64,000 nt of DNA from Quadrisphaera sp. DSM 44207 (GTDB taxonomy: Bacteria; Actinomycetota; Actinomycetes; Actinomycetales; Quadrisphaeraceae): NCBI RefSeq assembly GCF_900101335.1, contig NZ_FNKA01000002.1:372001-436000 (forward strand). The letters are read 5' to 3'. Under the pieces are notes generated by a model. The model made no database searches, had not been told where the DNA came from, and was given only the letters and a program-made list of their open reading frames with translations. The stretch's first letter is position 1; every line of letters begins with the position of its first letter. The position numbers and the translations under genes were made by a program. Positions 1,815 to 49,047 of the stretch are shown here, piece after piece.

Positions 1815-3095
1815 TCACAGGCGCACGCCGAGCAGGGCGTCCACCGCGCGCTCGACCAGCCCGGGCGCTCCCGCGGGCGGCGCGGCGGGCGGCGCGTCAC
1901 CCCGCCCGCCGGCCAGGCGCGCGTGCGCCCACGCGTCCACCACGGCCAGGGCCCCGGGCGCGTCCAGGTCCTCGGCCAGGCGCTCGCGCACCCCCGCCAG
2001 GACGGCGGGCTCGTCGTCCTGCTCCGGCCCGCCGCCGGAGCGGGAGAGCGCCGCGCGCCAGCGCCCCAGGCGCTCCTCGGCCTCGCGCAGGCCCTGCGCC
2101 GTCCACGCCCAGTCGCTGCGGTAGTGGTGGGCCAGCACGGCCAGGCGCACCGCCGCCGGGTCCGTGCCCTGGGCGCGCAGGCGCGAGACGAGCACGAGGT
2201 TGCCGCGCGACTTGCTCATCTTCTCGCCGTCCAGGCCCACCATGCCGGCGTGCACGTAGCGGCGCGCGAACGGCGGCCCGTCGAGGACGTGCCCGTGGGA
2301 GGCGCCCATCTCGTGGTGGGGGAAGACGAGGTCCGAGCCGCCGCCCTGCACGTCGATCGGGTGCCCCAGGTGCTCGCGCGCGATCACCGTGCACTCGACG
2401 TGCCAGCCGGGCCGCCCCCGCCCGAGGTCCCCGCCGTCCCACGCCGGCTCCCCGGGGCGCTGCAGGCGCCACAGCAGCGGGTCGAGGGGGTCGCGCTTGC
2501 CGGGCCGGTCCGGGTCGCCGCCGCGCTCGGCCGACAGAACCGCCATCGCGGCCCGGTCCAGGTGCGAGACGCCGCCGAACAGGGGGTCGGCGGCGGTGGC
2601 GAAGTACACGTCGCCGTCGGGCTCGCCGTCCGCGCCCGGCACCCGGTAGGCCGCCCCGTCCTCGAGGAGGCGCCGCACGGCCGTCGCGATGAGCGGGATC
2701 GACTCCACCGCACCCACCCAGGCGTCGGGCGCCAGCACGGCCAGGGCGGTCATGTCCTGCGCGAACAGCGCGCTCTCGCGGGCGGCGAGCTCGCGCCAGT
2801 CCTCCCCGCTCGCGCGGGCCCGCTCCAGCAGCGGGTCGTCGACGTCGGTGACGTTCTGCACGTAGCGCACGCGGTGCCCCGCGTCGCGCCAGGCGCGCTG
2901 CAGCAGGTCGAACGCCAGGTAGGTCGCGGCGTGCCCGAGGTGCGTGGCGTCGTAGGGGGTGATGCCGCACACGTACAGGGTGGCGTCGACGTCCTGCGCG
3001 GCGGGCACGAGCGCGCCCGTGGCGGTGTCGTGCACCAGCACCGGCCCCCCGCGGCCCGGCAGGTCGGGAACGGGCGGGGAGGGCCAGGAGCGCAC
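1815..3095 (-). CDS. mshC: L-cysteine:1D-myo-inosityl 2-amino-2-deoxy-alpha-D-glucopyranoside ligase
   Basis: Cytosolic ATP-dependent ligase of mycothiol synthesis; it joins cysteine to GlcN-inositol, the penultimate step. The 426-aa protein is a cysteinyl-tRNA synthetase homologue without the tRNA-binding tail: zinc-site YVCGITPYD (Cys43), HIGH-type THLGHAATY (residues 51-59), the [13 protein letters not shown] metal/substrate segment and KMSKSRGN near residue 300. MshC rather than CysS is chosen because of the short length and the [12 protein letters not shown] form. GTG start at 3095 lies six bases after a TAGGGT box, so the transcript is probably leaderless. It marks the host as a mycothiol-producing actinobacterium. 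Confidence 0.96.
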
Positions 3096-3101
3096 CGGCC
3101 G

Positions 3102-3107
3102 ACCCTA
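3102..3107 (-). promoter_or_regulatory. -10 box TAGGGT of mshC, leaderless start
   Basis: On the minus strand TAGGGT is followed by six bases and then the mshC GTG. No Shine-Dalgarno fits between them, so transcription should begin at or within a base or two of the start codon. Confidence 0.5.
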
Positions 3108-3142
3108 CCGGCGGCCCGGCCCCGCACCCGCCTGCCCCGCTC

Positions 3143-3182
3143 CGCTGGGCCGCTGGGCCGCTGGGCCGCTGCGCCGCTGCGG
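3143..3182. repeat. Five copies of an 8-bp tandem repeat (CGCTGGGC)
   Basis: Three exact and two near copies of CGCTGGGC in the gap between the mshC start and the fetB stop. Simple expansion of a GC-rich octamer; no hairpin or gene seen in it. Confidence 0.85.
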
Positions 3183-3193
3183 TGAGCGGGGGC

Positions 3194-3949
3194 TCAGGTC
3201 GGCAGGCGGGCGGCGAGGTCGGGCGCGAGCAGGACGCGGCGCGCCACGAGCTCGACGACGACCAGCACCGCGAGCGCCTGCGCCGCGAGCAGGCCGACGA
3301 GCACGAGCAGCTGCACCGCGGCGGCCGAGACGACCGACCCGCCGCCGAGCAGGACGCCGACGAACGCGCCGGGCAGGGTGACCAGGCCCACGGTGCGCGT
3401 CTGGTCCAGGGCGGGCACGAGGGCCAGCCCCGCGGCCGGGCGCGCCACCTCCAGGGCGGCCTCGCGCGCCGGGAGGCCGAGGGAGAGGGCCGCCTCGTAC
3501 TCCCCGGTGCGGACGCCGAGCTCGTCGGCCGTGCGGCGGCCCGCCAGGGTCGTGGCGGTCATCGCGCCGCCCACGAGGATCCCCGCGACGGGCAGCACGC
3601 TCTGCGGCTGCGCGGGCACGGCGCCGGAGGCGAGCACCAGCACGAGCACCGGGGCGGCGCCGGCGGCCACCGGCACGGCGGCCCACGGCGTGCGCAGCGG
3701 CAGGCCGAGGCGGCGCGAGGACGTCGCGGCGGCCACGGCGAGCATCGCGGCGACCCACAGGGCCGTCCACGCCAGGGACGTCAGCACCGCGGCGAGCACC
3801 AGCGCCACGCCCGCCAGCTGCGCGGTGGCGCGCAGGGCCGCTGCCACCACGGCGCGGCGCAGCGGCAGGCGGGCCAGGGCGAGCGCCAGGACCGCCACGC
3901 CCACCAGGGCCACCAGCACGCCGGCCAGCGCCGGCGACGGCGTCACCAC
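3194..3949 (-). CDS. FetB-like ABC transporter permease (UPF0014 family)
   Basis: 251-aa integral membrane protein of the UPF0014/FetB family, the permease of the FetAB iron-export type transporter. It has about seven hydrophobic segments and the conserved core: ATAQLAGVALVL, VLPVAGILVGGAMTATTLAGRR and a PALDQTRTVGLVTLPGAFVGVLLGG segment (about residues 183-207) typical of the family. No ATPase partner adjoins it here; the ABC ATPase at the window edge is too far to be linked with confidence. The GTG start at 3949 has little Shine-Dalgarno and follows a 12-bp tandem repeat. Substrate (iron) is inferred from E. coli FetB. Confidence 0.88.
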   Translation of the reverse strand: MVTPSPALAGVLVALVGVAVLALALARLPLRRAVVAAALRATAQLAGVALVLAAVLTSLAWTALWVAAMLAVAAATSSRRLGLPLRTPWAAVPVAAGAAPVLVLVLASGAVPAQPQSVLPVAGILVGGAMTATTLAGRRTADELGVRTGEYEAALSLGLPAREAALEVARPAAGLALVPALDQTRTVGLVTLPGAFVGVLLGGGSVVSAAAVQLLVLVGLLAAQALAVLVVVELVARRVLLAPDLAARLPT

Positions 3950-3952
3950 GGG

Positions 3953-4000
3953 CGTGCGGCCAGACGTGCGGCCCGACGTGCGGCCCGACGTGCGGTCAGA
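3953..4000. repeat. Four copies of a 12-bp tandem repeat (CGTGCGGCCCGA type)
   Basis: Copies at 3953, 3965, 3977 and 3989; outer copies end CAGA, inner ones CCGA. The last copy contains the stop codon of the SCO1664-like gene (3996-3998), so expansion happened across a gene end. Confidence 0.9.
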
Positions 4001-4931
4001 ACGGCGGCCAGGGCAGGGTCGGCCAGCCCGGCCGCGGCCGCGGGTAGCGGCCGCGGGAGGCCAGGCGCTGCACCCGCTCCCCGAGCGCGTCGACCTCCTC
4101 GGCGGTGAGCAGGTCGCTCAGCTCGTCCGCCAGCGGCCCGGCCAGGGCCGCGGCGGTCGCGGCCAGCCGGGCGGCCCCGTCGTCGTCCACGCGCTGGCCC
4201 GCCCACCCCCACAGCACGGTGCGCAGCTTGTGCTCGCAGTGGAAGGTCAGTCCGTGGTCGACGCCCCAGACCGGCTCCTCCCCGCCCGCGCCCGCCGCCG
4301 CGGCGTCGGCGCCGGGGCCCCGCAGCGCGCCGCGCAGGACGTGGCCGCCCTTGCGGTCGGCGTTGTTGACGACCGCGTCGAACAGCGCCATGCGGCGCAG
4401 CGCGGGGTGCTCGGCGTGCACGAGCAGCACCGAGCGCCCGTCGGTGCCCGAGCCCTCCACGACCGCGTGCCAGCCCTGGGGCACCCGGCTCGGGGGCACG
4501 ACGTCGACCAGCCCGGCGCCGGGCACCGGGGTGCTCGGGAGCAGGGGGCCGACCCACAGCTGCACCGACCCCGCCCCGCGCGGGCCGTCGCGCAGCACGG
4601 TGGGCGGCACGACGTCCCAGCCGCCCGCGGAGGAGACGAGCCACGCGGCGAGCTCCCGCTCGGCGAGCGTGCCGTCGGGGAAGTCCCACAGCGGCGCCTC
4701 GCCCGCGACGGGCTTGTACACGCAGCGGGCGCGCGCGCCGTCCAGCTCGACCTCGGCGACGAGGGTGGTGTTGGAGGCGCCGGCGACGCGGCCGAGCACC
4801 TGCAGCTCCCCGCGGGAGAGCAGGTCCAGCGGGTCGGGCGCGCCGGGGGCGGGGGTGGTCAGCGCCGGTACCCGTTCGCGCGGGGGCAGACGTGGCCGGA
4901 GGGCTCGAGGGGGTCGCCGCAGAACGGGCAC
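3996..4931 (-). CDS. SCO1664 family protein (kinase-like fold)
   Basis: Actinobacterial SCO1664 family; function unknown, with distant likeness to phosphatidylinositol 3/4-kinase or HipA-type kinases. Landmarks are LLSRGELQVLGRVAGASN, the CVYKPVAGEAPLWDFPDG nucleotide-loop-like segment with a conserved lysine, the catalytic-loop-like FDAVVNNADRKGGH and GVDHGLTFH (DxG-like). The start is unclear: no ATG/GTG/TTG lies between the DUF3090 stop and the conserved LLSRGEL. The options are a GTG at 4931 that overlaps DUF3090 by about 70 bases, or a CTG at 4862 that overlaps its TGA. It forms the usual cluster with DUF3090 and a histidine phosphatase. Confidence 0.82.
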   Translation of the reverse strand: MPVLRRPPRALRPRLPPRERVPALTTPAPGAPDPLDLLSRGELQVLGRVAGASNTTLVAEVELDGARARCVYKPVAGEAPLWDFPDGTLAERELAAWLVSSAGGWDVVPPTVLRDGPRGAGSVQLWVGPLLPSTPVPGAGLVDVVPPSRVPQGWHAVVEGSGTDGRSVLLVHAEHPALRRMALFDAVVNNADRKGGHVLRGALRGPGADAAAAGAGGEEPVWGVDHGLTFHCEHKLRTVLWGWAGQRVDDDGAARLAATAAALAGPLADELSDLLTAEEVDALGERVQRLASRGRYPRPRPGWPTLPWPPF

Positions 4932-5428
4932 GGGGGGCGGCCCGCCGCGACCACGGCCAGGGCCCGGCTGGCGAAGGAGCGGGCCGTGGCGCCCGACAGG
5001 TGCACGCGCAGCACCGAGCGGGGGTCGTCGTCCCCGCCGGTGGCGGCCCCGGCGCCCTCGGCCTCCTCGGTGCCCTCGTCGACCTCGAAGCACTCGATCA
5101 CCACGAGCTGGCGGTCGCCGTCCCAGGCCAGCGTCATGGTGCCGACCCGGAACTCCTCCTCGATCGGCGTGTCCAGCGGGGCGGTGTCGCCGGCGTCGGA
5201 CGGGGCGACGGCGGGCACGGGCGCGGAGCCGCCGCTGCGCCGCACCACCTCGTCGAGCAGCTCCTCGACCCGCTCGGCCAGCGCAGAGACCTGCGTCTTC
5301 TCCAGCGCCACGCTGGTCAGGGAGGCACCGGAGCGGGCCTGGAGGAAGAAGGTGCGCGACCCGGGCGGGCCGACGGTGCCGGCGACGAACCGGTCCGGGG
5401 GGTCGTAGTCGAAGACCTGCCGGGGCAT
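4859..5428 (-). CDS. DUF3090 family protein
   Basis: 189-aa conserved actinobacterial protein of unknown function. It starts MPRQVFDYDPPDRFVAGTVG, the invariant family opening, and ends in a zinc-ribbon-like CPFCGDPLEPSGHVCPRANG with three cysteines and a histidine. The middle carries an acidic low-complexity stretch. ATG at 5428 is chosen because it gives the family N-terminus and lies seven bases after a TAGGGT box. Its 3' end overlaps the start region of the SCO1664-like gene, so the two are likely co-translated. It occurs beside SCO1664-type and phosphomutase-like genes in many actinobacteria. Confidence 0.92.
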   Translation of the reverse strand: MPRQVFDYDPPDRFVAGTVGPPGSRTFFLQARSGASLTSVALEKTQVSALAERVEELLDEVVRRSGGSAPVPAVAPSDAGDTAPLDTPIEEEFRVGTMTLAWDGDRQLVVIECFEVDEGTEEAEGAGAATGGDDDPRSVLRVHLSGATARSFASRALAVVAAGRPPCPFCGDPLEPSGHVCPRANGYRR

Positions 5429-5435
5429 GGGCGCG

Positions 5436-5441
5436 ACCCTA
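5436..5441 (-). promoter_or_regulatory. -10 box TAGGGT of the DUF3090 gene, leaderless start
   Basis: TAGGGT on the minus strand is seven bases before the ATG at 5428, leaving no room for a ribosome binding site. Same geometry as mshC. Confidence 0.5.
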
Positions 5442-6251
5442 CCCGCGGGCCCCGGCGGGCCCGGTGGCACCGGCGTCCGCGCCGCCGGGGCCCGTGGTGC
5501 CGGGGCCCGTGGTGCCGGAGCCCGCGGTGCCGGGACCCGCGCCGCCGCCGACGGCGGCGTCCGAGCCCGAGCCCGAGCCGGAGCCCGCGCCGTCCTCGGC
5601 GGGCGGCAGCAGGCCCGAGACGTCGCCGCCGGTGTCGTTGACGCGCACGGCGAAGGGCCGCAGCGGCGTGTAGCGGACGACGGAGACCGAGGCGGGGTCG
5701 ACGACGATGCGCTGGAAGGCGTCCAGGTGCATGCCGAGCGCGTCGGCGAGCACGGCCTTGATGACGTCGCCGTGGGAGACGGCCACCCACACCGCGTGCG
5801 CCCCGTGCTCGGCCGCCACGCGCGCGTCCACGCGCCGGACGACGTCGAGGGCGCGCGACTGCATGGTGCGCATCGACTCCCCGTCGGGGAAGGTCACCGC
5901 GCTGGGGTGGGCCTGCACCACCGGCCACAGCGGGTCCTCGGTCAGCTCCTTCAGCGGGCGGCCGGTCCAGGAGCCGTAGTCGCACTCGGACAGGTCGTCC
6001 TCGACGTCCACGCCCGGGCGCGGCGCCTCCTCGGTGCCGCCCGCCCCGGTGATCGCGGCGGCCGTGGCGCGGCAGCGCTGCAGGGGGCTGGAGACCACGG
6101 CCGCCAGCGGCAGCGGCGCCAGGCGCTGCGCGAGCGCGGCCACCTGGGCGCGCCCGGCGTCGTCGAGGTCCACCCCCGGGGTGCGCCCGGCCAGCACCCC
6201 GCCGGCGTTGGCGGCCGTGCGGCCGTGGCGGACGAGCAGCAGCGTGGGCAC
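5439..6251 (-). CDS. Histidine phosphatase family protein (MSMEG_4193-type phosphomutase-like)
   Basis: Cytosolic phosphatase/phosphomutase superfamily enzyme. The catalytic RHG is in PTLLLVRHGRTAANAGG at the N-terminus, and the second histidine is in VAVSHGDVIKAVLADALG. The domain of about 220 residues is complete and matches the MSMEG_4193 subfamily that accompanies SCO1664/DUF3090 genes. A long Gly/Ser/Thr/Pro-rich tail built of GSGS and TTGPG repeats follows, probably disordered. GTG at 6251 is preferred; a second GTG sits two codons upstream at 6257. The gene ends inside the promoter region of the DUF3090 gene. The phosphate-bearing substrate is unknown. Confidence 0.9.
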   Translation of the reverse strand: MPTLLLVRHGRTAANAGGVLAGRTPGVDLDDAGRAQVAALAQRLAPLPLAAVVSSPLQRCRATAAAITGAGGTEEAPRPGVDVEDDLSECDYGSWTGRPLKELTEDPLWPVVQAHPSAVTFPDGESMRTMQSRALDVVRRVDARVAAEHGAHAVWVAVSHGDVIKAVLADALGMHLDAFQRIVVDPASVSVVRYTPLRPFAVRVNDTGGDVSGLLPPAEDGAGSGSGSGSDAAVGGGAGPGTAGSGTTGPGTTGPGGADAGATGPAGARG

Positions 6252-39186: not shown

Positions 39187-40155
39187 TCAGCCGGGCGGCG
39201 CTCCCGCCGTGTCCGCGGGAGCGCGCTCACCCGCGCGCACGACGCAGCGGAAGCCGAGGTGGCCGGTGGAGGTGTCGACCGCCTCGCCCTGCCGGGCGGC
39301 CGGGCGGTAGCGCAGGCAGTAGTCGGGGGCGCACAGGTGCGAGCCGCCCTTGACCACCCGGCGGGGGACGGCGGCGTCCGGCAGGCCCGGGACCCAGGGC
39401 TGGTCGGCGGCGTCGACGCGCGGGTTGCGCGGCACGCAGCACGCGGAGGCGACCTCCTCCGGGTGGCGCGGCCGGTACAGGTCGCTGGTCCACTCCCACA
39501 CGTCGCCGGCCGCGTCGTGCAGCCCGTAGCCGTTGGCGGGGAAGGCCCCGACGGGCGAGGTGCGGCTGTACCCGTCGCTGCCCAGGTCCTGCCACGGGAA
39601 CCGCCCCTGCCAGGTGTTCGCCATCGTCCGCCCGCCGGGCGCGAACTCGTCGCCCCAGGGGTAGACGGCGCCCTCCAGCCCTCCGCGGGCGGCGAGCCCC
39701 CACTCCGCCTCGGTGGGCAGATCCTCGCCCGCCCACCGCGCGTACGCCTCGGCGTCCTCGCAGGCCACGTGCACCACGGGGTGGTCCTCGCGCCCGTCCA
39801 CGGTGCTGCCCGGGCCCTCGGGGTGCCTCCAGGACGCACCGGGCACGTAGCTCCACCACGCCCGGGGGTCGTGCAGGCCCACCGGGTGCGGCGGGGGCGT
39901 GAACACCAGCGACCCCGGGACCAGCAGCGCCGGGTCCACGCCGGGGTAGTCCGCCGGGTCCGGGCGGCGCTCGGCCACGGTGACGTGCCCGGTCTGCGCC
40001 ACGAAGCGGGCGAAGTCGGCGGTGGTGACCAGGTGCCGGTCCATCCAGAAGCCGTCGACGGCCACCCGGTGCACCGGGCGCTCCTCGGGGTAGACGTCGT
40101 CCGAGCCCATCGCGAACGTCCCGCCGGGGATCCACACCAGGTCGTCGGCGGTCAT
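39187..40155 (-). CDS. Formylglycine-generating enzyme family protein (sulfatase maturase)
   Basis: 322-aa SUMF1/FGE-type oxidase that turns the CxPSR cysteine of sulfatases to formylglycine with O2 and copper. The fold runs from VWIPGGTFAMGSDDVYPEE to GFRCVVRAGE, with PVVHVACEDAEAYARWAG, LPTEAEWGLAARGG and YGLHDAAGDVWEWTSDLY. The copper-binding active cysteines are present as Cys275 and Cys280 in GGSHLCAPDYCLRYRPAAR, so it should be a true FGE rather than an inactive homologue. ATG at 40155, 10 bases after the DUF1028 stop: co-transcribed with it. Converges with its likely client sulfatase. Confidence 0.94.
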   Translation of the reverse strand: MTADDLVWIPGGTFAMGSDDVYPEERPVHRVAVDGFWMDRHLVTTADFARFVAQTGHVTVAERRPDPADYPGVDPALLVPGSLVFTPPPHPVGLHDPRAWWSYVPGASWRHPEGPGSTVDGREDHPVVHVACEDAEAYARWAGEDLPTEAEWGLAARGGLEGAVYPWGDEFAPGGRTMANTWQGRFPWQDLGSDGYSRTSPVGAFPANGYGLHDAAGDVWEWTSDLYRPRHPEEVASACCVPRNPRVDAADQPWVPGLPDAAVPRRVVKGGSHLCAPDYCLRYRPAARQGEAVDTSTGHLGFRCVVRAGERAPADTAGAPPG

Positions 40156-40165
40156 CGGCCGGTGC

Positions 40166-41074
40166 TCATCGCTCGTGCCCTGCCGGGGGCAGGATGCGCT
40201 CCACCACCTCGGCGGGCACCAGCCCGGCGGAGGAGAAGCGGCGGGCGACCTCGAGGAACTGCGGTGCCACGCCGCCCAGGTCCTCCAGCAGCCCCCGGGC
40301 GACCTCCTCGCGCCCGGCCAGGGCGGCGACGACGGCGCGCCAGAGCACCTGGTCCGGCTCGGTGAGCGGGTCCTGGTCGCGCAGCTGGTCCAGCGCGCGG
40401 TCGGCGGCACCGGCCTCGTCGTCCAGGGCCTGGGAGAACGCGCGGACGACCTGCTGGTAGCGCACCCTCCTGGCGACCAGCCGGTCGAGCTCGGTCACCG
40501 GGTCCGGGGAGTCGTCGACGCGCAGGTCGACCACGGTGTCGTGCCAGGGCCGCCCGGTGGTGCGCGCCCGCACCACCGCCACCGCCGCGGACCGGCGCCC
40601 GCGGATGTCACCGCCGGCGTCCTCGGCGGCGTGCAGCGCGCCGAGCAGGCGCTGGGACAGCAGCCCGGTGGAGGCGGTGAAGGACGCCACCATCGCCTCC
40701 CACACCGCGGGCGAGGCCACCGTGTTGGCCAGGGCCGCGCAGTCCTCGCCGACCTGGTGACCCGCCGCGGCGACGCACCCGGACCCGGTGTAGACGACCA
40801 CCTCCCCCGTCACCCCGGCCACCGCGACCTGGCGGCGCTCGGGGTGGGGGTCGACGGTGCGCAGCGCGGTCAGCGCCTCCCGCGCGGTCAGCCCGCCGCG
40901 CAGCATGTCCAGCCCGAGCTCGCCGTACATCGGCTCGCCCATCGACTGGGTGGCCACCACGCCGAGCCCCGGCACGGCGAAGGGCACGCTGCTGCCCACC
41001 GCGAACGCCTGCGACTGGGTCACCACGCCCATCATCCCGGCCTCGGGGTCCCGGGCCACGATCGAGGAGGTCAC
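40166..41074 (-). CDS. DUF1028 domain-containing protein (Ntn-hydrolase-like)
   Basis: 302-aa protein. The N-terminal DUF1028 domain starts TSSIVARDPEAGMMGVVTQS and has VGSSVPFAVPGLGVVATQSMG, YGELGLDMLRGGLTAREALT and the QVAVAGVTGEVVVYTGSGCVAAAGHQVGEDCAALANT core; the fold is that of Ntn hydrolases. The C-terminal 90 residues are a helical extension often seen as a peptidoglycan-binding-like or unknown tail. GTG at 41074 gives the normal family N-terminus. Being upstream in one unit with the FGE, it may process or use the product of the sulfatase pathway; this is inference. Confidence 0.88.
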   Translation of the reverse strand: MTSSIVARDPEAGMMGVVTQSQAFAVGSSVPFAVPGLGVVATQSMGEPMYGELGLDMLRGGLTAREALTALRTVDPHPERRQVAVAGVTGEVVVYTGSGCVAAAGHQVGEDCAALANTVASPAVWEAMVASFTASTGLLSQRLLGALHAAEDAGGDIRGRRSAAVAVVRARTTGRPWHDTVVDLRVDDSPDPVTELDRLVARRVRYQQVVRAFSQALDDEAGAADRALDQLRDQDPLTEPDQVLWRAVVAALAGREEVARGLLEDLGGVAPQFLEVARRFSSAGLVPAEVVERILPPAGHER

Positions 41075-42810: not shown

Positions 42811-43260
42811 GTGCCCGCCCGACGCCGGCTGGCAGCGGAGCGCGGGGACCAGCCCAGGACGCCGGGCCGCGGCCTGCGGCGCCGCGCGGCGGACCTGCTG
42901 GTGGCGCTGCGCTGGGTCGTCGTCCTGGGCTGGCTGGCCGTCGCCGTCGCTGCCGCCGCCGCGGCCGGCGAGCCCTGGGCCTGCGGCCGCACTGGCTGAT
43001 CCGGGCCCTGACCCGCCGGCGCGTGGCCGCCGCCACCGCGGCGGACCAGCGCCGCGTCGCCCTGGCCGCCTCCGCCGTCTCCCTGGTCGTCCTGGTGCTG
43101 CTCCTGCGCTCGCTCGTCGCCCCGGTCCACCTCCTGCTCGGCAACGTCCTGTCCGTCGCGTCGGCCCTGGGGCTGACGACGTGGGTCTTCCAGGACCTCC
43201 TGGACCGCCCGGGCATCGCGTTCTACGTGCCGTTCGCCCGCCCCACCCCTCCGACCGCCC
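42811..43260 (+). pseudogene. MMPL family transporter, internally deleted remnant
   Basis: The N-terminal piece (RRRAADLLVALRWVVVLGWLAVAVAAAAAAG) is the first helix of an MMPL/RND transporter. After a deletion and frame change the sequence resumes at helix 9-10: RRVALAASAVSLVVLVLLLRSLVAPVHLLLGNVLSV, ALGLTTWVFQDLL, GIAFYVPFA, where it ends. Several hundred residues are missing in the middle and the end is cut off. A separate, intact MMPL gene lies less than 1 kb downstream. Confidence 0.82.
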
Positions 43261-43286
43261 GGCGCGCCACGCGCGGACCGCACGCT

Positions 43287-43315
43287 TTGACGATGTGACC
43301 GTTCTGGTCCACGAT
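43287..43315 (+). promoter_or_regulatory. Promoter of the TetR gene (TTGACG-17-CACGAT)
   Basis: A good -35 TTGACG (43287) is 17 bp before CACGAT (43310-43315). Transcription would begin near 43322, which is itself a GTG start. Both operator half-repeats overlap this promoter, so the regulator should shut off its own gene. Confidence 0.5.
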
Positions 43316-43330
43316 GTGACCGTGACGGTC
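43297..43330. promoter_or_regulatory. Two-site TetR operator
   Basis: Two 13-bp palindromes, GACCGTTCTGGTC (43297-43309) and GACCGTGACGGTC (43318-43330, perfect around a central G), lie 21 bp centre to centre, two helical turns. Both are embedded in a direct repeat GATGTGACCGT. Classical arrangement for two TetR dimers on one face of DNA. Confidence 0.6.
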
Positions 43331-43915
43331 CAGCCCGCGCGTCGCGTGCGCCCCTCCAGCGAGGAGATCGACCGCGGCATCCTCGACGCGGCGGCGGAGA
43401 TCTTCGCCCGCCACGGGTTCGCGGGCACCGCGGTCCAGCAGGTCGCCGACGCCGTCGGCTACTCCAAGGCGGGCCTGCTGCGCCGCTTCGCCAGCAAGCA
43501 GACCCTCTACGACGCCGTGCTCGCCGCCGCCGTCCGCGAGGGCGAGGCGGTCGTGGAGGCGGCGGAGCAGGTACCCCCCGGTCCCGGCCGCCGCCAGGCG
43601 CTGCTCGACCTGGTCACCGAGGCGGCGCTCGCCAGCCCCGGGCTCGCCTCGCTGCTCCTGGAGTCGATCCGGCCGGCGTCCGACCTGCCGGGTCGCGCGC
43701 GCGTCGAGGAGCTGGTCACCGCGCTCCTGGAGTCCCTGGCCGCCGACGCCCCGAGCGCCCGCGAGCAGGTGCGGGCGCTGCTGGCCCTGCAGCTCGTCGT
43801 CAACGCCGCCTCGCTGCTGACCGCGCAGCCGCACGGCCCCCGCCTGGCTCCCGAGGAGCTGCGCGCCCTCGTCGTCGAGCTCTCCGGCGCCGTCCTCAGC
43901 CCCGCCCCCCGCTGA
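43322..43915 (+). CDS. TetR family transcriptional regulator
   Basis: 197-aa repressor. The helix-turn-helix is LDAAAEIFARHGFAGTAVQQVADAVGYSKAGLLRRFASKQTLYDAV; the C-terminal ligand domain is Ala/Leu-rich. Three in-frame GTGs (43295, 43316, 43322) could start it; 43322 is preferred because the promoter TTGACG/CACGAT would place the first base of the mRNA there. It precedes an MMPL transporter gene by 27 bases and is probably cotranscribed with it and with YhgE/Pip. Likely an autorepressor responding to an exported small hydrophobic molecule. Confidence 0.88.
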   Translation: MTVQPARRVRPSSEEIDRGILDAAAEIFARHGFAGTAVQQVADAVGYSKAGLLRRFASKQTLYDAVLAAAVREGEAVVEAAEQVPPGPGRRQALLDLVTEAALASPGLASLLLESIRPASDLPGRARVEELVTALLESLAADAPSAREQVRALLALQLVVNAASLLTAQPHGPRLAPEELRALVVELSGAVLSPAPR

Positions 43916-43942: not shown

Positions 43943-46690
43943 GTGTCCTCCCTGCTCTACGCCCTCGGCCGCGCCGCGCACCGCCGGTGGGGCGTCGTCC
44001 TCGTCTGCGCCGTCCTCGTGATCGGCCTGGCCGCCGGGGCCGCAGCCGTGCTCTCGCGCGGCACGGACGACGCCTTCGCCGTGCCCGGCACCGAGTCCCA
44101 GGAGGCCCTGGACCGGCTCGAGCAGACCTTCCCCGCCGCCAGCGGCACCTCGGCCCAGGTGGTCGTGGTCGCGCAGGACGGCGACGTCTCCGCCCCGCAG
44201 GTCACCGGCGCCGTCGCGGAGGTGGTGGCGCAGCTGGAGGGCATCGACCAGGTCGCCGCCGTCGCCTCCCCGCTCGCCGAGGACGGGTCCCTCTCCCCCG
44301 ACGCCGAGGTCTCCGACGACGGCGACGCGACGATCGTCTCCGTCCAGCTGAACGCCCCGGACGCCAGCGCGGCGACGCAGGAGCGGCTGCTGGAGATCGC
44401 CGAGGACGCCACGGGCGAGGACGTCCGCGTCACCGCCGGCGGCGCCGCCTTCCCCGCCGCTGCGCCGGGGCTGACCCCGACGGAGGGGCTCGGGCTGCTC
44501 GTGGCCCTCGTCGTGCTCGGGCTCGCGTTCGGCTCGCTGCTCGCCGCCGGCATGCCCCTGCTCACGGCGGTGGTGGGCGTCGCGCTGACGACGTGCGCGA
44601 TCTTCGCGGCCACCGCCGTCGTCGACGTCTCCGCCACCGCGCCCCTGCTGGCGGTGATGATCGGCCTGGCGGTCGGCATCGACTACGCGCTGTTCATCCT
44701 CGCCCGCCACCGCGCCCAGCTGGCCGCCGGCCTGGACCCCGAGGAGTCCACCGGCCGCGCCGTCGCCACCGCCGGATCGGCCGTGGTCTTCGCCGGGCTC
44801 ACCGTGATGATCGCCCTGGCGGGGCTGGGCGTGGCGGGCATCCCGTTCCTCACGGTGATGGGCCTGGCCGCGGCGGTCGCCGTCCTCGTCGCCGTGCTCG
44901 TGGACCTGACGCTGCTCCCGGCCCTCTTCGGCCTCCTCGGGCGCCGGCTCGTCCCGCGCCCGCGCGCTCCTCGCCGCCGGCGCCGTCCGGGCACCGCCGG
45001 GCGTCGCGGGGCCGCCGACCGCTGGGTCTCCGGGGTGCTGCGCGCGCCGCTGGCGGTCACGGCGGTCGTCGTGGCCGGCCTCGCCCTGGCCGCCGTCCCG
45101 GCCCTCGACCTGCGCCTGGCGCTGCCCGGCGCCGACGCCGGGCAGCGCGGCACCCCCGCCCGCGACACCTACGACCTGGTCAGCGAGGAGTTCGGCCCCG
45201 GCTACAACGGGCGCCTGCTGGTCACCGGGGACGTCGTCGCCAGCACCGACCCGCTCGGGCTCGTCGAGGCCGTCGCCGAGGAGCTGCGCGCCCTGGACGG
45301 CGTCGCCTCGGTGCCCCTGGCCACCCCGAACGAGGACGCCGACACGATGGTCGTCCAGGTCGTGCCCGAGGGCGGGCCCACCTCGGTGCAGACCCAGCGC
45401 CTGGTGGAGGAGATCCGGGCGCTGGCGCCGGCGATCGAGCGCGAGCACGGCGTGGCGGTCAGCGTGACCGGTCAGACCGCCGTCGGGATCGACATCTCCG
45501 CCCGGCTGATGGGCGCGCTGGCGCCCTTCGGCGTCCTCGTCGTCGGCCTGTCGCTGGTGCTGCTGGCGATGGTGTTCCGCTCCGTGTGGGTGCCGGTCAC
45601 CGCCGCCGTCGGGTTCGTGCTGTCCATCGGCGCGGCGCTCGGGTCCGTCGTCGCCGTCTACCAGTGGGGCTGGCTGGAGGGCCCGCTGCACACCGTGGCC
45701 ACCGGCCCGGTGATCAGCTTCATGCCGATCATCCTCATGGCGGTGCTGTTCGGGCTGGCCATGGACTACGAGGTCTTCCTCGTCTCCGGCATGCGCGAGC
45801 AGTGGGTGCGCACCCGCGACGCCCGCGCCGCCGTGCGCAGGGGCTTCACCTCCGCGGCGAAGGTCGTCACCGCCGCCGCGCTGATCATGTTCGCGGTCTT
45901 CGCCGCGTTCGTGCCCGAGGGCGACGCGACCCTGCAGCCGATCGCCCTCGGCCTGGCCGTCGGGGTCTTCGTCGACGCCTTCGTGGTGCGGATGACGCTC
46001 GTGCCCGCCGTGATGGCGCTGCTCGGGCAGCGGGCGTGGTGGCTGCCGCGCTGGCTGGAGCGGGCCCTGCCCTCCTTCGACGTCGAGGGCGAGGGCCTGG
46101 GCTCCCAGATCGCCCTGCGCGACTGGCCGCACCCTGGCGCCGCGCCCGGCGTGCACGCGCAGGACCTGGCCCTCGACCTCGGCGGCGAGCCGCTGCTGGC
46201 CGGCCTGGACCTGACCGTCGAACCCGGCCGGGTGCTCCTGGCCACCAGCGGCACCCGCACCTCCCGCACCGCGCTGGCGATGGTCCTGGCCGCGCGCACC
46301 GCCCCGACGTCCGGGCGCCTGAAGGTCGCCGGCGCCGTCCTGCCGCAGCAGGCCTGGTCCGCCCGCCGGTCGGTCGCGCTCGTGCGCTGCGTCGAGGAGG
46401 GCGGCGAGGAGGACGACGTCGCCGCCGCGGTGCGCCGCGCCGTCCGCCCGGGCACCCGGGTGCTCGTCCTCGACGGGCTGGACTCCGTGCCCACCGCCGC
46501 CGCGCGGCAGGCCGCGCTGGACGCCGTGGGCGCCGCCTGCGCCGGGCGCGGCGTCGCGGCGGTGGTCACCGCCACCGAGGAGGCGGTGACCGGGCTGCGC
46601 CTCGACGCCCTCGACGCCGCGCTCCTCGACCTCTCGTCCCGCGCTCCCCGCACCGCCCCGCTGGAGGAGGCCCGCTCGTGGCACGCCTGA
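43943..46690 (+). CDS. MMPL family transporter with C-terminal degenerate ABC-ATPase-like domain
   Basis: 915 aa. Residues 1-710 are a complete MMPL/RND exporter: two sets of helices with the proton-relay GIDYALFILARHR and AMDYEVFLVSGMREQW, and two periplasmic loops. About residues 735-915 read like an ABC ATPase: VHAQDLALDLGGEPLLAGLDL, VEPGRVLLATSG, LAARTAPTSGRLKVAG, and a Walker-B-like TRVLVLDGLDS. The P-loop is TSGTRTSRTAL instead of G-x-x-G-x-GKT, and no LSGGQ is seen, so ATP hydrolysis is unlikely. GTG at 43943. It overlaps the YhgE/Pip gene by 13 bases. Confidence 0.9.
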   Translation: MSSLLYALGRAAHRRWGVVLVCAVLVIGLAAGAAAVLSRGTDDAFAVPGTESQEALDRLEQTFPAASGTSAQVVVVAQDGDVSAPQVTGAVAEVVAQLEGIDQVAAVASPLAEDGSLSPDAEVSDDGDATIVSVQLNAPDASAATQERLLEIAEDATGEDVRVTAGGAAFPAAAPGLTPTEGLGLLVALVVLGLAFGSLLAAGMPLLTAVVGVALTTCAIFAATAVVDVSATAPLLAVMIGLAVGIDYALFILARHRAQLAAGLDPEESTGRAVATAGSAVVFAGLTVMIALAGLGVAGIPFLTVMGLAAAVAVLVAVLVDLTLLPALFGLLGRRLVPRPRAPRRRRRPGTAGRRGAADRWVSGVLRAPLAVTAVVVAGLALAAVPALDLRLALPGADAGQRGTPARDTYDLVSEEFGPGYNGRLLVTGDVVASTDPLGLVEAVAEELRALDGVASVPLATPNEDADTMVVQVVPEGGPTSVQTQRLVEEIRALAPAIEREHGVAVSVTGQTAVGIDISARLMGALAPFGVLVVGLSLVLLAMVFRSVWVPVTAAVGFVLSIGAALGSVVAVYQWGWLEGPLHTVATGPVISFMPIILMAVLFGLAMDYEVFLVSGMREQWVRTRDARAAVRRGFTSAAKVVTAAALIMFAVFAAFVPEGDATLQPIALGLAVGVFVDAFVVRMTLVPAVMALLGQRAWWLPRWLERALPSFDVEGEGLGSQIALRDWPHPGAAPGVHAQDLALDLGGEPLLAGLDLTVEPGRVLLATSGTRTSRTALAMVLAARTAPTSGRLKVAGAVLPQQAWSARRSVALVRCVEEGGEEDDVAAAVRRAVRPGTRVLVLDGLDSVPTAAARQAALDAVGAACAGRGVAAVVTATEEAVTGLRLDALDAALLDLSSRAPRTAPLEEARSWHA

Positions 46691-49047
46691 CCGTCGAGCG
46701 CAGCAGCAGCGCACCCGCCGTCGCACCCGCCGTCGCACCCGCCGTCGCACCGTGCTCCGCTCCCGGCACCGCCGGGAGCGGGCGCGGCGCCCGGGCCGGG
46801 TGGCTGACCGTGCTCGGGCTCGTGCTCGTCCCCGTCGTCCTCGCCGCGTCCTTCGTGTGGGCGCTGTGGCGGCCGGCCGACGACCTCGAGCGCGTGCGGG
46901 CGGCGGTGGTCAACCTCGACGTCCCCGCGACCGTGGACGGGCAGACCGCGCCCCTCGGCCGCCAGCTCGTCGCCGCCCTGACCGCCGGCACCGGCACCGG
47001 CACCGGCACCGGCGGCACCGGCACCGGCACCGGCACCGGCGGCACCGGCACCGGGACGGACGGCGGCGAGGACCGGTCGGACCTCGACTGGACCCTCACC
47101 GACGCCGAGACGGCCGCCGCGGGGCTGCAGGACGGCACCTACGCCGCCGCGGTCACCATCCCGGAGGGCTTCTCCACCGCCGCGACCTCCCTGGCGGGCG
47201 AGGACCCGGCCGCGGTCACCGCCGCGACCCTGGAGGTCATCACCTCCCCCGCGTCCGCCGTCGCCGACGCCGTGGTCGCTCGCGCCGTCAGCGACGCGGC
47301 CGCCGCGGCGCTGGCCGACCAGGTGACGACCACCTACGTCGAGAACGTCCACATCGGCTTGTCCACCCTCTCCGACGGCCTGCAGCAGTCCGCGGACGGC
47401 GCGACGGCCCTGGAGGAGGGCACCTCCCAGCTCGCCGCCGGCCTGGCCGGCGCGAGCGCCGGCAGCGACCGCCTCGTCGTGGGCCTGGGCGACCTCGCCG
47501 ACGGCACGGCGGAGCTCGCCGGGGGCAGCAGCGCGCTGGCATCGGGCGCCGCCCGCTCCGCCGAGGGCGCCGCGGCGCTGGCCGACGGCCTCGAGCAGCT
47601 GCGCGCCGGCACCGGCGAGCTGCCGGGGCACACCGAGCAGCTCGCCGTGGGAGCCGCCGGCGTGGCCTCCGGCGCGGCGGATCTGCACGAGAGCCTGGGC
47701 GGCCTCGGCGACGGGCTGCAGGAGGCGGCCGGCGGCCTGGCCGCCCTGCCCGGTGCGGCCGCGGACCTGTCCGCGGGCAGCGCCCAGGTGCAGGACGGCG
47801 CCACGGCCGTGGCGGGCGGCGCGTCGTCCCTCGCCGACGGGCTGGCGCAGGCCGTGAGCGCCTGCCAGGCGCAGCCGGGCGCCGACTGCAGCCAGCTCTC
47901 CTCCCTCGCCACCTCCGCCGCCGGTCTCGACGACGCCGCCGCGGAGGTGGCGGCCGGGGCGGGGGCGGTGGCCGGCGGCGCGGACGCCCTGGCCGCCGGA
48001 GCGCGTCCCGCGGTCGACGGCGTCTCTGCGGCCGCCGAGGGCGCGCGGCAGGCGAGCGCCGGCGCCGGCGCCCTGGCCCAGGGCGCCCAGCAGGTCGCCG
48101 ACGGCACGTCGGCCCTCGCCGCCAGCGCGCCGGCCCTGGCCCAGGGCGTCGCCGCCTCGGCGGACGGCGCCCGCCCGCTCACCGAGGGCACGGCCGAGCT
48201 GGCCCGGGGCGCGCAGGCCCTCGCCTCCGGGGCGGCGGACCTGCAGCAGGGCACCGAGCACGCCGCCGGAGGCGCCCGCGAGCTCGCCGAGGGCACCGAG
48301 CAGCTGCAGGCCGGTGCCACCGGCGTGGACGACGGCGCCGCCCGCTTGGCGCAGGGGTTGTACCAGAGCGCGGACGCCGTCCCGTCCCTGGACGAGGACG
48401 AGCGCGCGACCGTGGCCGCGGTCGCCGCAGAGCCCGTGAGGACCACCACGGGCGCGGACGCCTCCGCGGGCATCGGCGCCGCCTACCTGACGGCGCTGGC
48501 TCTCGGCGTCAGCGCCCTGGTGGTGTTCCTGCTGCTCGCGGCCGTGCCGGCCCGCGCGGTCAGCAGCAGCGCCGGGTCCGTGCGCCTGGCGCTGCGCTCC
48601 TTCGCCCCCGCGGCGGGCGTCGCCGCGGCGCAGGCCGTGCTGCTCACCGGCGTCCTGCAGGTCGTGCTCGACCTCGACGGCGGAGCGGTCCTGCGGCTGG
48701 CCGGGCTGCTGCTGCTCGCCGGGCTCGCGCTCAGCGCCGTCAACCAGGCGCTCGTCGCGGCCGCGGGCGGGATCGGGCGGTTCGCCTCCCTCGTGGTGCT
48801 GGCGGTCAGCGCCCCCGCGGCGCTGGTGTCCACCACGCCGCCGGCCCTCGCGACCCTGTTCGCGGCCACGCCGCTGGCGCCCGTGCTCGACGGCGTGCGC
48901 GCCGTCGTCACGGGCAGCGGGGGCGCCGGCGGCGACGCGGCGGCCCTGCTCGCGTGGACGGCCGGCGCGCTGCTCGTCACCGTCCTCGCGATCGCCCGCA
49001 CCCGCTCGGTGCGGCCGAGCCACCTGCGGCGGCTCGCGGCCGCCTGA
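46678..49047 (+). CDS. YhgE/Pip domain-containing protein
   Basis: 789-aa membrane protein of the YhgE/phage-infection-protein family related to ABC-2 permeases. Helix 1 (LTVLGLVLVPVVLAASFVWALW) is followed by the family VVNLDVPATVDGQ; then a large extracytoplasmic region of repeated LxxGxxxLxxG helices (such as LADGTAELAGGSSALASGAA) forms a long coiled stalk, and five C-terminal helices end VLDGVRAVVTGSGG...LAIARTR. A Thr-Gly repeat tract lies at residues 104-125. GTG at 46678 overlaps the MMPL stop. Probably works with the MMPL partner in export of lipid or wall material; exact role unknown. Confidence 0.9.
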   Translation: MARLTVERSSSAPAVAPAVAPAVAPCSAPGTAGSGRGARAGWLTVLGLVLVPVVLAASFVWALWRPADDLERVRAAVVNLDVPATVDGQTAPLGRQLVAALTAGTGTGTGTGGTGTGTGTGGTGTGTDGGEDRSDLDWTLTDAETAAAGLQDGTYAAAVTIPEGFSTAATSLAGEDPAAVTAATLEVITSPASAVADAVVARAVSDAAAAALADQVTTTYVENVHIGLSTLSDGLQQSADGATALEEGTSQLAAGLAGASAGSDRLVVGLGDLADGTAELAGGSSALASGAARSAEGAAALADGLEQLRAGTGELPGHTEQLAVGAAGVASGAADLHESLGGLGDGLQEAAGGLAALPGAAADLSAGSAQVQDGATAVAGGASSLADGLAQAVSACQAQPGADCSQLSSLATSAAGLDDAAAEVAAGAGAVAGGADALAAGARPAVDGVSAAAEGARQASAGAGALAQGAQQVADGTSALAASAPALAQGVAASADGARPLTEGTAELARGAQALASGAADLQQGTEHAAGGARELAEGTEQLQAGATGVDDGAARLAQGLYQSADAVPSLDEDERATVAAVAAEPVRTTTGADASAGIGAAYLTALALGVSALVVFLLLAAVPARAVSSSAGSVRLALRSFAPAAGVAAAQAVLLTGVLQVVLDLDGGAVLRLAGLLLLAGLALSAVNQALVAAAGGIGRFASLVVLAVSAPAALVSTTPPALATLFAATPLAPVLDGVRAVVTGSGGAGGDAAALLAWTAGALLVTVLAIARTRSVRPSHLRRLAAA
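46720..46754. repeat. 12-bp tandem repeat coding APAV units
   Basis: Three in-frame copies of a GTCGCACCCGCC-type unit near the YhgE/Pip start, giving Ala-Pro-Ala-Val repeats in the cytoplasmic N-terminus. Confidence 0.75.
46987..47052. repeat. GGCACC hexamer repeat inside YhgE/Pip
   Basis: Two 27-bp blocks, each four GGCACC units plus GGC, then two further units. It codes Gly-Thr repeats just outside helix 1. Because the unit is six bases, copy changes keep the frame and alter linker length. Confidence 0.92.

Follow-up and report, generated by a model that had tools for sequence, protein, structure and literature searches.

The window analysed here (64,000 nucleotides of Quadrisphaera sp. 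DSM 44207; contig NZ_FNKA01000002.1, positions 372,001 to 436,000) encodes an MMPL transporter whose C-terminal tail is, by predicted fold, an ABC nucleotide-binding domain (NBD), and a YhgE/Pip gene lies directly downstream. The tail lacks the catalytic motifs of ABC ATPases, and the same pair of genes is linked without exception in the testable loci of other genomes. These are known parts in an undescribed, conserved architecture. The open-access literature that we searched holds no description of an MMPL protein with a degenerate NBD next to YhgE/Pip, which agrees with the suspicion of novelty in an earlier note made from the sequence alone. The reading we lean towards, with slightly better than even confidence, is that the two products form a proton-driven export complex within a TetR-linked module, with the degenerate NBD as a docking part.

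Layout of the locus and its two membrane proteins

The three genes of interest lie on the + strand and run in one direction in the window. The first encodes a TetR-family regulator (43181 to 43915; PF00440, 51.7 bits), the start codon of which is uncertain, with the TetR_N match beginning only at residue 67 of the ORF. Its end is 27 bases from the start of the MMPL gene. Of 107 loci, 91 have a TetR-like gene 5' of the fused MMPL gene, divergently oriented in 81 and on the same strand in 10. Further upstream in the window, a formylglycine-generating-enzyme-like ORF overlaps a DUF1028-like ORF on the - strand (39187 to 41074), as judged by eye from the translations.

The fusion protein (43943 to 46690; 915 aa, GTG start) is encoded by an intact ORF. 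Residues 1 to 711 (43943 to 46075) form the MMPL (RND) transporter core, which matches Pfam MMPL (PF03176) with 287 bits against a curated cut-off of 20.5. Tyr-Asp pairs constitute the proton relay of MmpL3 (PMC10171966), and both corresponding pairs are essentially invariant across the fused MMPLs: D247-Y248 (44681 to 44686) is present in all 103 sequences with letters at that site and D608-Y609 (45764 to 45769) in all 107. Because of this invariance the fused MMPL looks competent for proton-driven transport, and the residues needed for the earlier idea of proton drive are in place. A search with PADLOC matched the window MMPL to no defence system. The core is followed by a linker with a DVEGEG motif (46076 to 46153), and confidence in the full-length model is low at residues 709 to 719. 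The pattern LPx[FLV]D[VI]EGEG from this linker was used to search for the fused family.

The YhgE/Pip gene (46678 to 49047; 789 aa) overlaps the fusion gene by 13 bases (46678 to 46690), as had been noticed before. Its product has an N-terminal domain, a long LxxG heptad region, and a C-terminal membrane domain. The N-terminal model TIGR03061 scored 108.7 bits, above its cut-off of 96.15. The C-terminal model TIGR03062 scored 64.1 bits, below its cut-off of 102.2, with an E value of 1.3e-17 over nearly the entire model, so on sequence grounds this domain is divergent rather than absent. TIGR03057 gave 51.2 bits and PF12698 (ABC2_membrane_3) a match under its cut-off (E 3.9e-6); YhgE/Pip homologues include putative ABC-2 transporters (PMC3924187). 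The protein resembles the YhgE/Pip family (phage infection protein; TIGR03061/TIGR03062, TC 9.B.74) in its N-terminal model and LxxG heptads, but differs in the sub-cut-off C-terminal model and in having an MMPL fusion as neighbour in place of a stand-alone NBD-like protein. A simple ACCGGC-type repeat (46987 to 47055) codes for a Thr-Gly run inside the N-terminal domain, and the TIGR03061 match is split in two there.

A start codon that permits overlap of the two genes is present in 85 of 106 fused MMPL-YhgE/Pip pairs. We give no independent weight to a 4-base overlap, counted in 72 of the 106, since our script picked the start nearest that position and start codons are frequent there at a TGA stop.

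Fold and motif loss of the MMPL tail

The last ~200 residues of the fusion protein match no Pfam family. Residues ~738 to 900 (46154 to 46642) match ABC ATPase models (NCBIfam) and PDB chains weakly, and a profile built from 11 homologous tails found ABC ATPases in the PDB with an E value of 1.4e-8. AlphaFold2, run with the alignment of the 11 tails, predicted the tail with a pLDDT of 86.7 and a pTM of 0.81. Foldseek matched this model to ABC ATPases (E about 1e-9), and VIA-align superposed it on an ABC ATPase with a Z score of 16.4 and an rmsd of 3.0 over 170 residues. The full-length model has a mean pLDDT of 79.3 and places the NBD after the last MMPL helix, behind the low-confidence linker. 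The structure prediction thus assigns the window tail to the NBD fold, a statement about fold that does not imply function. The earlier note had described the tail as ABC-like up to the P-loop. The likeness is borne out but the endpoint is not, since the NBD fold continues to a Walker-B-like strand and beyond; what is absent is the helical, signature-bearing part.

The motifs of ATP hydrolysis are largely gone. Where Walker A (GxxGxGK[ST]) would be expected, the window tail reads SGTRTSRT (residues 769 to 776; 46247 to 46270) and has no lysine, and the Walker-A lysine is kept in 6 of 106 fused tails, among which the P-loop varies widely in both length and residues. The LSGGQ signature is missing from the window tail together with its helical subdomain, and the signature stretch is missing from 101 of the 106; a similar pattern does recover canonical ABC genes within the same loci. 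Replacement of the P-loop core and absence of LSGGQ had both been read correctly at the outset. The Walker-B-like strand VLVLDGLD (46460 to 46483; D844 and D847) has Gly at the position of the catalytic Glu, which is mostly Gly or Asp in fused tails. Pfam ABC_tran does not match the window tail and is passed by one longer fusion, at locus L188. An hhhhDxxD pattern at Walker B survives in most fused tails (first Asp in 85 of 106, second in 76 of 106) though the P-loop is lost. Motifs degenerate to this degree would not be expected to support an ABC ATP cycle. From its motifs, the fused tail is apparently an ATP-dead pseudo-NBD.

The ratio dN/dS, from simple Nei-Gojobori counts, was 0.04 to 0.40 for the tail in 15 of 16 close-species pairs, and one distant pair gave 0.79. 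Values for the tail were equal to, or up to a few times, those for the MMPL core. By these counts the tail is under purifying selection. At one locus (L093; MMPL ORF 2422 to 5922) the tail is too diverged for the tail profile to detect; an NBD-like tail is visible there by eye, and YhgE/Pip adjoins.

Spread of the fusion and its likely origin

A scan of the whole collection found at least 549 database stretches that encode a relative of the tail, so a fusion unique to the Quadrisphaera genome is ruled out. The best 80 of these come nearly all from Actinomycetota, including Microbacteriaceae, Promicromonosporaceae, Cellulomonadaceae, Brevibacteriaceae, Propionibacteriaceae, and Nocardioidaceae, plus a Pseudokineococcus. 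One of the 80 is labelled Proteobacteria; it is a 3.4-kb metagenome contig that we suspect is misbinned. Among 149 relatives surveyed, 54 genomes matched the tail profile with an E value of 1e-12 or lower. The majority of the matches start at the MMPL linker, lie in a reading frame of at least 880 aa, and are fusion-like; the minority that cover the NBD part alone are probably ordinary or stand-alone NBDs. With many independent genomes carrying the fusion, a sequencing or frame artefact is also ruled out.

YhgE/Pip lies directly downstream in 90 of 90 testable loci found via the MMPL or the tail (11 in one set and 79 of 80 in another, the exception being a contig end; the two sets share a few genomes). 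Beside related MMPLs that lack the tail, YhgE/Pip was found in 0 of 19 cases within the stretches examined. The earlier note had expected the products of the overlapping genes to meet. This strict co-occurrence argues strongly that they would do so.

Elsewhere in the class, many YhgE/Pip genes are preceded by a stand-alone NBD-like gene, and the fused tail appears to derive from such a partner. Aligned with hhalign, the profiles of fused and stand-alone NBDs matched with a probability of 99.8% (E 8.9e-28), and the gap in the fused set falls on the helical/signature region. The stand-alone partner is homologous to the fused tail and, like it, adjoins YhgE/Pip, but it is unfused, retains the helical subdomain, and mostly has Arg or His in place of the P-loop lysine. 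Four of five stand-alone relatives tested passed Pfam ABC_tran (PF00005). The canonical Walker-A lysine was found in 2 of 46 stand-alone loci, and the commonest P-loop was GPSGSGRT; in this count the script pattern matched no P-loop for 8 of the 30 loci in the second set. None of the 46 distinct loci has LSGGQ in the NBD-like partner, and in the sampled class we rejected a canonical ABC partner beside YhgE/Pip on this basis. No MMPL core match was found within the 9 to 15 kb examined around YhgE/Pip genes with a stand-alone partner, so YhgE/Pip can work without a neighbouring MMPL. At two loci (L088 and L104) the stand-alone NBD-like gene and YhgE/Pip are duplicated in tandem, and at two others (L085 and L086) two divergent YhgE/Pip genes lie one after the other, and neither an NBD-like nor an MMPL partner was detected.

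In a tree of MMPL cores, all sampled tailed cores form one clade (support 100/99), so the fusion probably arose once. In a YhgE tree, built by a quick method with midpoint root and SH-aLRT support only, the fused type arises from within the stand-alone types, and long-form fusions branch first. The long-form Aeromicrobium fusion at L188 is full length, has an intact Walker A (GPTGAGKT), and still lacks LSGGQ. It lies near the base of the YhgE tree; the two trees disagree on its placement. The stand-alone loci, the alignment, and the YhgE tree together uphold the earlier proposal that a separate ABC-like protein was captured by the MMPL. The further claim, that catalysis was lost through the capture, is not supported in that form. 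Since the stand-alone proteins and the L188 fusion already lack LSGGQ and the lysine is rare in the former, the NBD was probably largely degenerate before fusion and decayed further afterwards. In the simplest history, the NBD would have been poor in motifs already when it was captured, once, and would have been shortened later; the shortening may have happened more than once.

Proposed mechanism and its significance

In the mechanism that we favour, the MMPL would act as a proton-driven RND transporter that powers the pair from the proton-motive force. The pseudo-NBD, as a descendant of the stand-alone ABC-like partner of YhgE/Pip, would run no ABC ATP cycle and would instead dock the MMPL to YhgE/Pip from the cytosol. 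YhgE/Pip, a membrane protein of ABC-2-like resemblance whose long LxxG region is likely to be outside the membrane, would provide the extracytoplasmic portion, where a lipid-like or amphipathic substrate is received or guided on its way out. Two lines of reasoning underlie this. By Rosetta-stone logic, the MMPL and YhgE/Pip should work together because the NBD-like partner that is separate from YhgE/Pip elsewhere is fused to the MMPL here. And because the motifs of the tail are not expected to sustain an ABC ATP cycle, the proton-motive force is the likely energy source. In canonical transporters the helical subdomain forms part of the groove where the NBD grips the permease. Since most fusions have lost it, they are unlikely to contact the permease as a standard NBD does and would have to dock in some other way.

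Other roles for the tail deserve consideration. Its role could be regulation or sensing, with MMPL activity switched by a nucleotide or other ligand that the tail can still bind, and without docking of YhgE/Pip. The retained beta-core and Walker-B-like Asp, and the few tails with a P-loop lysine, fit such a role, but the window P-loop has no lysine, the loop varies widely among fusions, and the strict linkage to YhgE/Pip is left unexplained; we regard this as unlikely. We give similarly little credence to a general cytosolic localisation or interaction domain with a merely co-regulated YhgE/Pip. The C-terminal domain of MmpL3 does serve localisation and interactions and is non-essential (PMC10171966). 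However, that domain is described as disordered, whereas the window tail is predicted to be a folded NBD homologous to the YhgE/Pip partner, and tail and YhgE/Pip co-occur without exception.

A decaying remnant without present function would fit two observations: the tail changes faster than the MMPL core, and in some lineages, such as that of L093, it can hardly be recognised. We regard such a remnant as quite improbable, given that nearly all close pairs have a dN/dS far below 1, that the fold is confidently predicted, and that after one fusion the tail has persisted in over 100 loci from several families. Least probable by our estimate, indeed very improbable, is an asymmetric ABC dimer in which the tail is the degenerate partner of an intact NBD whose gene lies elsewhere, with ATP still driving YhgE/Pip. 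ABC exporters in which one nucleotide site is degenerate are known (PMC7756269), but the conserved pair includes no canonical ABC gene and the tail lacks the signature helix needed to complete the site of a partner.

Known systems offer partial parallels to the docked, proton-driven pair that we favour. MmpL3 and cluster II MmpL transporters (PF03176) share with the window fusion the RND core, the two Asp-Tyr pairs, and a cytosolic C-terminal extension; they differ in that a disordered extension is described for MmpL3 (PMC10171966), whereas the fusion has an NBD fold and a YhgE/Pip partner gene. In mycobacteria, MmpL7 (an RND protein) and DrrABC (an ABC transporter) are each required for PDIM export (PMC11539658), a precedent for RND and ABC parts serving one lipid in one pathway. 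DrrABC, however, is a separate ABC transporter whose signature residues have been tested by mutation, whereas the NBD in the window is degenerate and fused to the RND protein. In Saccharopolyspora hirsuta, YhgE/Pip and MMPL genes with consecutive locus numbers are increased 3.8- and 3.3-fold by cholesterol (PMC9782250). We take this as a transcriptomic hint, the likeness being one of gene names and consecutive locus numbers. Another paper that mentions YhgE and MMPL (PMC12584985) is unrelated to the window pair.

Taken further, and only tentatively, YhgE/Pip may be an ABC-2-like permease that now draws its energy from a proton-driven RND pump instead of ATP, the link between the two being the former, now dead, ATPase subunit of the permease. 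Such a pair would be a distinct class of envelope export machine; we consider this stronger version rather doubtful. Hundreds of genome records contain the fusion, and because the domain in the window has no Pfam match, the tail will probably escape annotation. RND and ABC transporters count as two distinct classes that differ in their source of energy, and a conserved fusion of an RND protein with a dead ABC motor links both. The poorly understood YhgE/Pip family would thereby gain a concrete, testable partner and power source.
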